Below, one piece after another: positions 39,229-44,226 of a stretch of 44,226 nucleotides of DNA. Both the position numbers and the translations under genes were made by a program. The stretch spans positions 1 to 44,226 of the forward strand of contig CALKES010000022.1 of NCBI GenBank assembly GCA_938084715.1, given 5' to 3'. The notes below the pieces were generated by a model. That model saw only the letters and a list, made by a program, of their open reading frames with translations, made no database searches and was not told the origin of the DNA. Source of the DNA: Candidatus Bipolaricaulota bacterium. Lineage in GTDB: Bacteria > Bipolaricaulota > Bipolaricaulia > Bipolaricaulales > Bipolaricaulaceae. How positions within the stretch are numbered: position 1 is the first letter of the stretch; each line of letters opens with the position of its first letter.

Positions 39229-40880
39229 CGTTCCTCTTTCCCTGGGCGTGGGCGTGGCTTGGGGCCGGGCTCGGGGCGGTCCTCCTCCACCTCCTCCGCC
39301 GCCGGGAGCGGGAGCACCCCGTGTCGGCCCTGTTCCTGTGGGAGCCGATCCCCCCGGACCGGGTGAGCCGGGTCCAGCGGGTCCTGTCCCGCCTCGACCT
39401 CCTGTTCCTCCTCCAGCTCCTCGCCGTCCTCCTCCTCGCGGCGGGGCTTGCCGGTCCCCTCTTCCGGGTCGTTCGCCCCGCCGGGGCGACGGCGATCCTC
39501 CTGGATGGATCGGCGTCCATGGGGATCGGGAACCGGCCCGAGGAGGCGGTGGAGGCCGCCCGGCGGGTCGTCCGGGAGTCCGCCGGGCCGTGGGCCGTCG
39601 TCCTGTGGGCCGATCCCCCCCAGCTCCTCGTCCCCCCGACGGACCGCCGGGAGGAGGCCCTCGCCCTCCTCGGGGCCTACCGACCCACCCTGGGCTCCCG
39701 CCCGCCCATCGGCCCGGCCCTCGCCCTCCTCCCCGGGGGCTTCGGCCGGATCGTGGCCGTGACCGACGACCCCCCGACCGAGGAGGGGGTGGAGGTCGTC
39801 CTCCTCCCGCCCCGGGAGAACCTGGCGATCGTCGCCTTCTCCGTCCGGCCCACCCCCGGGGGGACGGGATACGAGGCCCTGGTCCGGGTCCGGAACGACA
39901 CCCGGCGGTACCGGGACGTCCAGGTGGCCCTCGACATCGGTTCGGGGACGTACCTCGCCTCCCGCCTCCTCGGCCCTAGGGAGGAGGACCTGTTCACGTT
40001 CAGCCTCCCCCTCGTCCGCCCGGGGCTGCGGGCCGAGCTCCTCCCCCGGGACGACTTCCCGTGGGACAACGTCCGCTACTTCGCCCTCGAGGGGGCGGCC
40101 GCCCTCCGGGTCTGGTGGCTGGGGGAGGAGGACCGGTACCTGGGGGCCGCGCTCGGGGCCGCCCTCCCCGTCGAGCGAACGGCGACGGGGCCCTGGGACC
40201 TGACCGTGGCCGTCCGCACCGGCCTTCCCGACCTCCCCCCTGGCCCGGTCCTCCTCGTCGGGGCCTCCTCCCCCGAGGCCCCCCTCGGGGAGGCCGTTCC
40301 CGGGGGGGCGTTCCGGGGGGCGGACTCTCCCCTCCTCCAGCACGTCGTCCCCGAGGCCTTCCGGTCAGGGGCCGTCTTCCCCCCGAGCCTTCCCCCGGGC
40401 GCCGTCGTCGACCTGTGGGCGGGGGACGTTCCCGTCCTCGCCCGGTGGGAGACGGCTGCCGGCCGGCGGACCCTCCTCGCCCTCGACCTCCCCCGCTCGA
40501 ACCTCCCCCTCCTCCCCGACTTCCCGATCCTCCTCCGGGGGCTCCTCACCTGGCTCCTCCCGTTCCGGCCGCGGGCGGCCCTCGTCGTCGGGGAGGCCCT
40601 CGAGCTCCCACCGGGGACCGAGGTCGTGACCCCCCAGGGCCCGGTGGCGGGGGTCTGGGTCCCGGACCGGCCGGGGCTCTACGAGCTCCGGGGTGAGCGG
40701 ACGGAGGTCGTGGCGGTGAACGTCCCGTACGGGGAGTCCCTTCCCCCGCGACCGGGTGGGGGGGGCGGGGCGCGGGGCGGGGCGGCCGTGGCCGAGGTCG
40801 CCGGCTGGCCCCTGTTCGCCCTCGGGGCGTTCCTCCTCCTCGCCCTGGAGTGGGGCCTCGCCCGGAGGAGGGGGCTCTGA
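39225..40880 (+). CDS. BatA-type membrane protein with VWA domain
   Basis: A 551-residue membrane-anchored VWA protein. The N-terminus MTFLFPWAWAWLGAG with LLHLLRRRE is the BatA/aerotolerance signature, with helices at about 7-23 and 59-79. The VWA domain begins at about residue 86 with the metal site D94-G-S96-A-S98. The remainder (about 195-520) is beta-rich and extracytoplasmic or cytoplasmic depending on topology, and a last helix lies at about 526-545. The VWA domain is expected to bind a protein ligand in a MoxR-dependent way. The stop TGA shares its last A with the start ATG of the next gene. Confidence 0.88.
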   Translation: MTFLFPWAWAWLGAGLGAVLLHLLRRREREHPVSALFLWEPIPPDRVSRVQRVLSRLDLLFLLQLLAVLLLAAGLAGPLFRVVRPAGATAILLDGSASMGIGNRPEEAVEAARRVVRESAGPWAVVLWADPPQLLVPPTDRREEALALLGAYRPTLGSRPPIGPALALLPGGFGRIVAVTDDPPTEEGVEVVLLPPRENLAIVAFSVRPTPGGTGYEALVRVRNDTRRYRDVQVALDIGSGTYLASRLLGPREEDLFTFSLPLVRPGLRAELLPRDDFPWDNVRYFALEGAAALRVWWLGEEDRYLGAALGAALPVERTATGPWDLTVAVRTGLPDLPPGPVLLVGASSPEAPLGEAVPGGAFRGADSPLLQHVVPEAFRSGAVFPPSLPPGAVVDLWAGDVPVLARWETAAGRRTLLALDLPRSNLPLLPDFPILLRGLLTWLLPFRPRAALVVGEALELPPGTEVVTPQGPVAGVWVPDRPGLYELRGERTEVVAVNVPYGESLPPRPGGGGGARGGAAVAEVAGWPLFALGAFLLLALEWGLARRRGL

Positions 40881-43297
40881 TGCGGTTCCTCAATCCCCTC
40901 GCCCTCCTCGGGCTCCTCCCCGCCGCCGCGGTCTTCTTCCTCTCCCTTCGCCGGCCGACGCTCCTTGGCCGGGCCCTGACCCTGGGGCTCCTCGCCCTGG
41001 CCCTCTCCGGCCCCGAGGTCGCCCTCCGGCGGAGGGGGGAGACCGTGGTCTTCCTCGTCGACCGCTCGGCCAGCGTGGGGGACGAGGCGGGGGCGGCGCT
41101 TCCCGATCTTCTCGCGGCGGCCCGGGGCCGGGGGGCCGACGTCGGGGTGATCTCCTTTGCCGACGGGGCGGCCGTGGCCCGCTGGCCGGGGATCGGTGAG
41201 GTCCCAGGTCAAGCCCTCTCCCCGTTTGGGACCCACATCGCGGCCGCGATCGACCTCGCCTTAGCCCTCGCTCCCCCCGGGCCAACCCAGCTCGTCCTCC
41301 TCTCCGACGGCCGGGGTACCGCCGGGGATGGGCTCGCCGCCGCGGCCCGGGCCGCGGGGCGGGGGATCCCCGTCCACGTCGTCCCCGTGGGCCGGTCCGA
41401 CCTCGTCCGGCTGGCCGAGCTCACCGGCCCCCGGGAGGCGCCTTCGGGAACGGTGGTCCTGGAGGCAACCCTGGCCGCCGCCCGGCCGACCCCGGCGACC
41501 GTTCGCCTCCTCCGGGACGGGGTCGAGCTCGAGACCCGGGCGGTGGACCTCCCCCCGAGGAGGACGACGCTGGCGTTCACCGACCGGCCGCCGCCCGGGT
41601 TCCGCGTCTACCGGGTCGAGGTCCAGGCCCCCGGGGACCCGGTTCCCGAGAACAACGCCCTCGACTGGGGCCTCCGCGTGGGGGATCCCCCCGAGGTCCT
41701 CGTGGTCGGGCCCCGGCCGAGCGCGGTGGACGACCTCCTCCGGGCGGCGGGGATCCCCTTCCGCCGGGCGAGCTCCCTCCTACCCACCGACCTCGCCGGG
41801 GTCGGGCTCGTAGTCCTCGACGGCCACCCCCTGGGCCTGATCGGGGCCCGGACCCAGGAGGCGCTCCGGGCGTTCGTCGCCGGGGGCGGCGGGCTCCTCG
41901 TCGTCCAGGGCCGGGAGGCGGTGGCGGGGTACCTCGGGCCGGTGGAGGAGCTCCTCCCGGTGACCTACGCCGTCCCCGAGCGGATCCAGGAGGCCACGGC
42001 CGCGGTCGTGTTCGTGCTCGATCGGTCGGCGTCCATGGGGGCGATGAGCGGGGGGGCGGTGAAGATCGACCTCCTCAAGGAGGCGACCGCTGCCGCGGCC
42101 GAGGTCCTGCCGCCCGAGGACGTCCTGGGGGCCGTCGCCTTCGACCGCTACCCCACCTGGCTTGTCCGCCCCGGTCCCGTCGCGGAGGTCCGCGACGCCC
42201 TGTTTGCCGCCCTCCGCGGTCTCACCCCGAGCGGGGGAACCGACGTCTTCCCCGCCCTCGAGGCGGCGGTGGACGCCCTCCGGGGGACGACCGCCCGGCT
42301 CCGCCACGCCATCGTCATCTCCGACGGAAAGACCCACTGGGACGAGGAGATCCTCGCCCGGCTCCGGGTGGCGGTGGCCGAGGGGCGGATCGGGGTCACG
42401 ACGATCGCCGTGGGGGAGGACGCGGATCTCTCGACCCTCGCCGAGCTCGCCGCCCTGGGGGGTGGGAGGACGTACGTCCTGGCGTCCATGGCCGACCTCC
42501 GGACGGTCCTCGTCCAGGAGGTCGAGCGGGTGGCCCGGCCGCGGTTTGTCGAGCGGGAGGCCCCGGTCCTCCCCGGCCCCGGCGCGTTCCCGCTCTCCTC
42601 TCCGCTCCCTCCCCTCCTCGGGTACACGCTTACGTTCCCCAAGCCCGCGGCGGACGTGGTCCTCCTCACCCCGGCGGGGGACCCCCTTCTTGCCCGGTGG
42701 CGGATCGGCCTTGGCGAGGTGGCCGTCCTCAACGCCGACCTGTACGGGATCTGGACGCGGGAGTGGGTCCGCTCCCCGGCCCTGGGCGAGCTGTGGGGGA
42801 GGCTCCTTGGGGCGTTGTGGGGCGAGAGGCAGGGGGTGACCGTGGACTGGGCCGTGGTCGGGGGGACCCTGCGCCTGGGGGTCGAGGCCGCCTCCGGCGG
42901 CCGGTGGGTCAACGGGCTGGCGTTTTCGGGCGAGCTCGTCGGGCCGGGGGGCGTCCGGGCGGTGGAGTTCGCCCAGGTGGGTCCGGGGCGGTACGAGGCC
43001 GAGCTCCCGAGCCCCGGGGCCGGGGCCTACCTCCTCACCGTGAGCGAGCCTGGCGGAGGGTACGGCGGGGCGTTCGCCCTATCGCTTCCGTACCCCAAGG
43101 AGCTCGAGGCGTTCGGGCCGGACCTCGCCGCCCTCCGGGCGATCGCCCGGGTCTCCGGGGGGGAGGTTCTCCGGGACGAGCTCCTTCCCTCGCCCCCGGG
43201 GGCGGGGGCGGACTGGACGCCCCTTGGGCGGGCCCTCCTCTGGGCCGCGGCGGGCTTTCTCCTCCTCGACCTCGCCCTCCGCAAGCTCCTCGCCTGA
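40880..43297 (+). CDS. Twin-VWA membrane protein with GATase-like middle domain
   Basis: An 805-residue protein. Two N-terminal helices (about 5-22 and 31-45) precede VWA domain 1 with D61-R-S63-A-S65, SPFGTH and LLSDGRG. A beta-sandwich (about 185-265) and a glutamine-amidotransferase-like Rossmann segment (about 270-365, LVVLDG and GGGLLVVQG, without a catalytic Cys in the usual place) follow. VWA domain 2 has D381-R-S383-A-S385, TPSGGTDVF, and VISDGKTHWDE; then a C-terminal beta-rich region (about 545-770) and a last helix (about 783-803). Both metal sites look complete. A longer start at 40850 lies inside the previous gene; the ATG at 40880 (TGATG junction) is preferred. Last gene of the operon. 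Confidence 0.88.
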   Translation: MRFLNPLALLGLLPAAAVFFLSLRRPTLLGRALTLGLLALALSGPEVALRRRGETVVFLVDRSASVGDEAGAALPDLLAAARGRGADVGVISFADGAAVARWPGIGEVPGQALSPFGTHIAAAIDLALALAPPGPTQLVLLSDGRGTAGDGLAAAARAAGRGIPVHVVPVGRSDLVRLAELTGPREAPSGTVVLEATLAAARPTPATVRLLRDGVELETRAVDLPPRRTTLAFTDRPPPGFRVYRVEVQAPGDPVPENNALDWGLRVGDPPEVLVVGPRPSAVDDLLRAAGIPFRRASSLLPTDLAGVGLVVLDGHPLGLIGARTQEALRAFVAGGGGLLVVQGREAVAGYLGPVEELLPVTYAVPERIQEATAAVVFVLDRSASMGAMSGGAVKIDLLKEATAAAAEVLPPEDVLGAVAFDRYPTWLVRPGPVAEVRDALFAALRGLTPSGGTDVFPALEAAVDALRGTTARLRHAIVISDGKTHWDEEILARLRVAVAEGRIGVTTIAVGEDADLSTLAELAALGGGRTYVLASMADLRTVLVQEVERVARPRFVEREAPVLPGPGAFPLSSPLPPLLGYTLTFPKPAADVVLLTPAGDPLLARWRIGLGEVAVLNADLYGIWTREWVRSPALGELWGRLLGALWGERQGVTVDWAVVGGTLRLGVEAASGGRWVNGLAFSGELVGPGGVRAVEFAQVGPGRYEAELPSPGAGAYLLTVSEPGGGYGGAFALSLPYPKELEAFGPDLAALRAIARVSGGEVLRDELLPSPPGAGADWTPLGRALLWAAAGFLLLDLALRKLLA

Positions 43298-43458: not shown

Positions 43459-43707
43459 CTAGCCGACGATCCGCGCCAGGGCATCGTCATCTCCCTCGAG
43501 GAACACCTTGGGCCCGGCCAGGACGGCCCGGGCGAAGGGGTCGCCGTTCCTCACTCGGTCCCGGAGCTCGCCGGGGGTGAACACGGCCGCGTTGATCTCC
43601 CGGCCGAGCTCCCGTTCGAGGTCCATCAGGGCAGCGGTGAGGGCCCGCGGGGCGAGGGCCTCCCGGACCCGGTCCCTGTTCACCGAGGGACCCCCGGCCT
43701 TGCGCAC
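43459..43707 (-). pseudogene. C-terminal remnant of an MNT-type nucleotidyltransferase
   Basis: An open frame of 82 residues from a GTG. REALAPRALTAALMDLEREL, GREINAAVFTPGELRDRV and GDPFARAVLAGPKVFLEGD match the C-terminal half of minimal nucleotidyltransferase-domain proteins, many of which carry an N-terminal HTH and belong to MNT-HEPN toxin-antitoxin-like pairs. The catalytic GSxAxG and DxD part is missing: going upstream the frame runs only eleven more codons to a TGA at 43740-43738, and those residues (ENKQRTSAGE...) do not fit the family. The promoter of the divergent helicase now occupies the place of the missing half. Most likely a truncated, inactive relic. Confidence 0.65.
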
Positions 43708-43729
43708 TTCCCCAGCGCTCGTTCGCTGT

Positions 43730-43758
43730 TTGTTCTCTCAAAGGGGGACGGCTATGAT
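43730..43758 (+). promoter_or_regulatory. Promoter of the helicase gene
   Basis: TTGTTC (43730-43735) and TATGAT (43753-43758), 17-base spacer. Predicted start near 43765 gives a leader of about 130 bases before the GTG at 43896, unusually long for this window. Confidence 0.55.
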
Positions 43759-43846: not shown

Positions 43847-43895
43847 ACCCTCGAGCTCTACAGGACTTTGAGCACCGAAGGGGAGGCGGTGCGCG

Positions 43896-44226
43896 GTGAG
43901 CTCGCATTCAACCCTTCACCAGCGCGTCCTCGAGCTCTACTCCGCGTACGTCGGGAGCTTTCTTTCCTTTGCCGACCCGCGGATCGAGGCGTTTGTCCAG
44001 CGGGAGCTGTTCGAGACGCAGAGCCTGTGGCCTGAGCCGCTCCTGGAGGTTGCGGCCCACTACGCGCCGGGGCCCACGCTCCGCGAGCTTGCCGACGCGG
44101 GGTTGGTCCACCCGTTGTGCGGGGAGATCATCCGGGTCGAGCGCCTGCACAAGCACCAGCACGAGGCGATCAGGCGCGGACTCCGCGGCGAGCCGTTCGT
44201 CGTTACTTCCGGCACTGGCTCCGGGA
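43896..44226 (+). CDS. N-terminus of a large DEAD/DEAH helicase (cut by window end)
   Basis: The first 110 codons of a gene that runs off the window. The start is the GTG at 43896, fixed by GAAGGGGAGG (43877-43886) 9 bases upstream; the same frame has a TGA at 43869. Residues 13-56 (ELYSAYVGSFLSFADPRIEA..., LWPEPLLEV) resemble the leader of large COG1205-like helicases that often end in DUF1998. A Q-motif-like RLHKHQHEAI (83-92) is followed by Walker A TSGTGSG (104-110), truncated before its Lys. Such helicases occur in YprA/MrfA-type repair and in defence systems such as Druantia and DISARM; which one cannot be told from 110 residues. Confidence 0.75.
   Translation, partial: MSSHSTLHQRVLELYSAYVGSFLSFADPRIEAFVQRELFETQSLWPEPLLEVAAHYAPGPTLRELADAGLVHPLCGEIIRVERLHKHQHEAIRRGLRGEPFVVTSGTGSG

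Follow-up and report, generated by a model that had tools for sequence, protein, structure and literature searches.

The 44,226-nucleotide window analysed here is the whole of contig C22 of genome G000 (1.38 Mb in 38 contigs, 96% complete), and window and contig end together at position 44226 of 44226. Its last feature is an open reading frame on the forward strand (43896..44226) that begins with GTG, runs through 110 stop-free codons and is open at its 3′ end. Because the end of the window is the end of the contig, this gene has been cut by the assembly. The encoded protein comprises an N-terminal region, an LxKHQxEAI motif and then VVTSGTGSG, a Walker A motif severed at the contig end just before its lysine; relatives read on past this point as ...GTGSGKSL. 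We assign these codons to the N terminus of a YprA/ArmC-like DEAD/DEAH helicase of the ARMADA Type I kind. The initial annotation had proposed the start of a large DEAD/DEAH helicase at the window edge and had pointed to TSGTGSG; the reading frame is real, the motif lies within the Walker A sequence and the full-length relatives belong to the DUF1998 (MZB, YprA) family. The fragment itself has no Pfam match and only weak PADLOC matches to DruE models, and it shares 46–55% identity with the N termini of same-family helicases that are 1650–1700 amino acids long. Searches of viral contigs returned neither a relative of the fragment nor an exact match to the end of C22. A repeat was considered as the cause of the contig break and rejected, as nothing else in the genome matches the last 927 bp well.

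Two neighbours precede the helicase start. On the reverse strand, 43462..43707 encodes the C-terminal remnant of an HTH-nucleotidyltransferase (abortive-infection/toxin-antitoxin-like) from which the HTH and catalytic parts have been deleted, as judged by comparison with genomes G010 and G011 and by the Pfam matches of relatives. The remnant is 64% identical over 64 amino acids to the G010 copy, which is intact, and the G011 copy is also longer. A toxin-antitoxin-type remnant had been suspected at this position, and it proves to be this decayed gene. Further upstream, a forward-strand gene for a vWA-domain protein (40850..43297) is the last of a MoxR/DUF58/vWA operon, which forms a conserved left flank in related genomes.

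Upstream of the helicase start, a Shine-Dalgarno sequence read directly from the DNA, GGGGAGG (43880..43886, forward strand), lies 9 nt before the GTG, and a AAGGAAGG-type site occupies the equivalent place in G011, the closest sister genome. A forward-strand promoter-like pair, TTGTTC-17 nt-TATGAT (43730..43758), matches 8 of 12 consensus positions and recurs in G011 as TTGTCT-17-TATGAT, with hexamers and spacing kept. This recurrence makes a dedicated promoter plausible; a strict promoter scan found none upstream of the helicase start, so this part of the initial annotation stands at that strength, whereas the strong Shine-Dalgarno and the long conserved leader both hold up. The leader spans ~130 nt, with a conservation similar to that of the coding part. 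It has no Rfam match, and we therefore set aside the idea that it is a known RNA. A terminator-like hairpin followed by TTTGTTCTCT (43713..43728, forward strand) is a weak candidate, with one such structure found against 0.7 expected by chance.

Comparison with G011, whose assembly contains 50 amino acids of the same helicase start, indicates that the fragment's frame is under protein-level selection. The two proteins are 70% identical over this stretch, and the nucleotide differences fall 9, 11 and 23 times (of 50 each) at the first, second and third codon positions. GC content by codon position in the fragment is 0.71, 0.45 and 0.87.

Genome searches recovered relatives of the same family and class that are 1650–1730 amino acids long and contain DEAD, Helicase_C and MZB/DUF1998 domains (Pfam), with large inserts bearing Cys motifs between the RecA domains. 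PADLOC labels these proteins DruE (E 1e-88 to 1e-95), as would be anticipated of a 2023 release that is older than ARMADA. At the C terminus, EDxHD residues (E...D...DG..H...D) are conserved in 12 of 17 full-length homologues, and profile comparisons against the PDB gave sub-threshold matches to 3r3p, 3hrl and Vsr (E 0.04–0.7). Of two models of this C-terminal domain, the first was too poor (pLDDT 63) and the second good (82.5); a Foldseek search of the domain returned no significant PDB match. In the relatives, the helicase is predicted to carry a fused Vsr-type nuclease at its C terminus. The EDxHD residues have been lost in a branch comprising Treponema, Acidithiobacillus, Kozakia and Mesorhizobium, and partly in Chlorohelix, with the operon kept (L005, L123, L129, L130 and L134). 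A more distant 1595-amino-acid helicase in another genome (L120:2483-9818, G070:C122) is preceded by an 846-amino-acid gene with no Pfam match and is possibly Druantia III-like.

These sizes bear on the reading that the initial annotation had named as its own refutation, an ordinary MrfA/YprA repair helicase followed by housekeeping genes. MrfA belongs to the same superfamily and shares the RecA1, RecA2 and MZB core, but the MrfA-type proteins of this phylum are separate genes of 736–750 amino acids, against 1650–1742 for the fragment's relatives. The residues preceding LxKHQ and the Walker A variant VVTSGTGSG also match the 1700-amino-acid class throughout. In an approximately unbiased (AU) test, grouping of the fragment with MrfA was only marginally rejected (p 0.050). 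Taken with the sizes and motifs, we regard a repair helicase of ordinary size as extremely improbable.

The AU tests accompanied a tree built from N-terminal regions, in which the fragment groups with the helicase-first proteins of G027 and G014 (support 89/100). Together these nest in a 20-row ARMADA I clade (100/99) that stands apart from E. coli ArmC (ARMADA II), DruE (Druantia III) and MrfA. Exclusion of the fragment from the ARMADA I clade was rejected (p 0.035), as was its grouping with E. coli ArmC II (p 0.0003); on the latter result we discarded an ARMADA Type II system, in which a GajB-like UvrD gene would come next. Because the fragment fills only a quarter of the alignment columns, its finer placement within the clade is unsure.

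The PADLOC results raise the alternative of a Druantia-type system, in which DruE would be accompanied by DruH or other dru genes. DruE models are the best matches of both the fragment and its relatives, and ARMADA and Druantia helicases are sisters (PMC12458937). Nevertheless, grouping with E. coli DruE III was rejected (p 0.012), a comparison that concerns type III, as DruE types I and II lie outside the tree's sampling, and the close full-length relatives have SNF2 and/or methylase neighbours rather than DruH or other dru genes. A Druantia system is accordingly very improbable. Of the Druantia, DISARM and MrfA comparisons that the initial annotation had proposed, the first thus yields the best profile match, while the tree and the relatives' neighbours assign the fragment to ARMADA Type I.

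Within the phylum, SNF2 and/or methylase genes lie beside a full or C-terminal YprA of this kind in all eight contigs that show a neighbour (G027 C73 and C183, G014 C94 and C70, and one each in G088, G090, G028 and G060). The helicase comes first in G027, G014, G088, G090 and Treponema, and the next conserved gene encodes an SNF2 helicase that PADLOC describes as DpdE/DrmD/BrxHII-like. Where the contig reaches far enough, an Eco57I/DrmMI-like (PglX-like) methylase follows. Named plasmids carry both arrangements, with the helicase first in Deinococcus radiophilus, Rhodococcus, Acidithiobacillus caldus, Kozakia, Mesorhizobium and Chlorohelix, and the order reversed in cyanobacteria, Thermus (where the methylase is not annotated) and Haloquadratum. 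Neither an SNF2 nor a methylase gene lies upstream of the helicase start in the window or in G011, and the fragment therefore appears to occupy the first position of its operon, the usual ARMADA order.

The relatives thus resemble ARMADA Type I, for which the operon order is described by Bell et al., 2025 (bioRxiv, PMC12458937), in having a YprA-like helicase first, followed by a BrxHII-like SNF2 protein and a PglX/DrmMI-like methylase, and in the helicase itself (~1700 amino acids, an MZB domain and a predicted Vsr-like C terminus). They share SNF2 (DrmD) and methylase (DrmMI) homologues with class 1 DISARM. In DISARM, however, the helicase is divided between DrmA and DrmB and a PLD protein, DrmC, is present, whereas the relatives carry a single fused helicase of 1650–1742 amino acids with MZB/DUF1998 and no PLD gene in the operon; we rejected DISARM on these grounds. 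Among the nuclease, methylase, PLD or DUF1998 partners for which the initial annotation had suggested searching, a methylase is present in the relatives, DUF1998 and a predicted nuclease are fused to the helicase itself, and PLD is absent from the relatives' operons.

Some ARMADA loci of the phylum depart from this arrangement. G028 and G060, and G022 in pieces, have the SNF2 gene first, then the methylase, an RmuC-family gene and the helicase. This reversed order with an added RmuC-family gene between methylase and helicase characterizes genus g12, which belongs to the same family as the window genome, and differs from ARMADA Type I as described. The RmuC genes lie at L053:16073-17836 (G028; Pfam E 6e-86), L117:11738-13075 (G060; E 5e-14) and L018:1-171 (G022; judged by eye), and the main text of the ARMADA preprint (PMC12458937) makes no mention of RmuC. 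In G014 C70, the ARMADA helicase and SNF2 genes are separated by a nested defence module made up of a gene for an AAA_21 ATPase (HEC-01/AriA-like) and a 226-amino-acid mad4-like gene (L102:3906-5785). Two ARMADA contigs assigned to different genera (L017 and L019, of G027 and G014) are 99.6% identical over 5563 bp, suggesting either a recent transfer or a mis-binned contig.

The remainder of the system was not found in the G000 assembly. Full-length Treponema and G027 helicases used as queries matched nothing that could continue the gene elsewhere in the genome, and neither an SNF2 nor a methylase gene was found in this 96% complete assembly. The window thus differs from a described ARMADA Type I locus in showing only 110 amino acids of helicase, and the operon in G000 is one that we infer rather than see. 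ARMADA loci also break in the assemblies of G011, G014, G022 and G027, in which at least two similar copies, or variants from different strains, are present. Since the relatives' ARMADA contigs break too, missing partners would be expected from assembly alone, and an assembly gap is the simplest reason why the rest of the helicase, the SNF2 gene and the methylase gene were not found.

The same result would also fit a decaying relic, in which an ARMADA helicase has been reduced to its N-terminal part and unrelated sequence lies beyond the contig end. This possibility arises because the adjacent nucleotidyltransferase has decayed in G000 and because G022 C49 contains a similar orphan fragment, disrupted by a frameshift and a stop and altered in its Walker A motif. 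That orphan (L020:8053-8434) is a decayed N-terminal piece of the same helicase; its DNA is 66.5% identical to the window, and the match takes in part of the leader. In G000, by contrast, all 110 codons form an intact frame that shows a third-position bias relative to G011, the motifs, Shine-Dalgarno sequence and promoter-like pair are preserved, and contig breaks at ARMADA loci recur in the four related assemblies. We consider a relic unlikely. It is quite unlikely, moreover, that the helicase in G000 stands without SNF2 and methylase. It would then be a helicase-nuclease that defends the cell alone, or a reduced form of ARMADA working with different partners, and might be coupled to the HTH-nucleotidyltransferase in the same hotspot.

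A comparison of the site across related genomes places the helicase start in a defence hotspot between the MoxR/vWA operon and a flavodoxin gene. The operon is conserved as the left flank in genus g1, and the contents of this one site differ among genomes. The site is empty in the complete sister genome G009, where the flavodoxin gene lies within 0.35 kb of the vWA operon. G010 has the HTH-nucleotidyltransferase and a type I restriction-modification locus between vWA and flavodoxin, and G005 has a type I restriction-modification system directly after vWA. In G011, the left contig (C92) carries the nucleotidyltransferase and then the same helicase start at the contig end, and C31 carries the end of a methylase followed by the right flank with flavodoxin. 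G000 has the decayed nucleotidyltransferase followed by the helicase start. This variation makes the island a real hotspot and, along with the partner genes seen in relatives, supports the earlier suggestion that the helicase opens a defence island. A small G011 contig (C56) contains the C-terminal half of an SNF2 gene and most of a methylase that is 74% identical in DNA to the C31 methylase where they overlap. The two are different alleles (L094 for C56, L145 for C31), suggesting two operons or a strain mixture in that assembly.

The right flank of the hotspot in G000 was not located, and an ABC permease belonging to the other right flank is absent. One candidate is contig C16, which ends in a GH57-glgC block. 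Because this block follows within ~3 kb of the vWA operon in G003 and G006, C16 may be the right neighbour of C22; against such a join, other members of the genus do not keep the vWA-to-GH57-glgC order. The window contains no tRNA that could serve as an integration site.

Taken together, these observations make it probable that an ARMADA Type I anti-phage operon, situated in the hotspot downstream of the MoxR/vWA operon, begins with this gene. The complete helicase (ArmC in ARMADA nomenclature) is expected to be about 1700 amino acids long, with RecA1, RecA2, MZB/DUF1998 and a terminal Vsr-type nuclease. In E. coli ARMADA Type II, phage defence is non-abortive, infected cells stay alive, and protection needs all four genes together with their ATPase and methylase motifs (PMC12458937). 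If G000 carries the whole operon, it would work in a similar way by analogy with that system, an analogy drawn for Type I as well as for G000. The methylase would mark host DNA. Incoming phage DNA that is unmarked or damaged would be recognised, unwound and cut by the two helicases together with the nuclease fused to one of them, and the cell would be protected without being killed.

The locus is an additional member of a system already known, ARMADA Type I, which was described only in 2025 and whose proteins PADLOC 2023 still labels Druantia, Dpd or DISARM. It places ARMADA in a phylum of small-genome bacteria and reveals a hotspot that in close relatives is variously occupied by ARMADA, occupied by type I restriction-modification or left empty. 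Such alternation offers clean before-and-after comparisons of how the operon moves.
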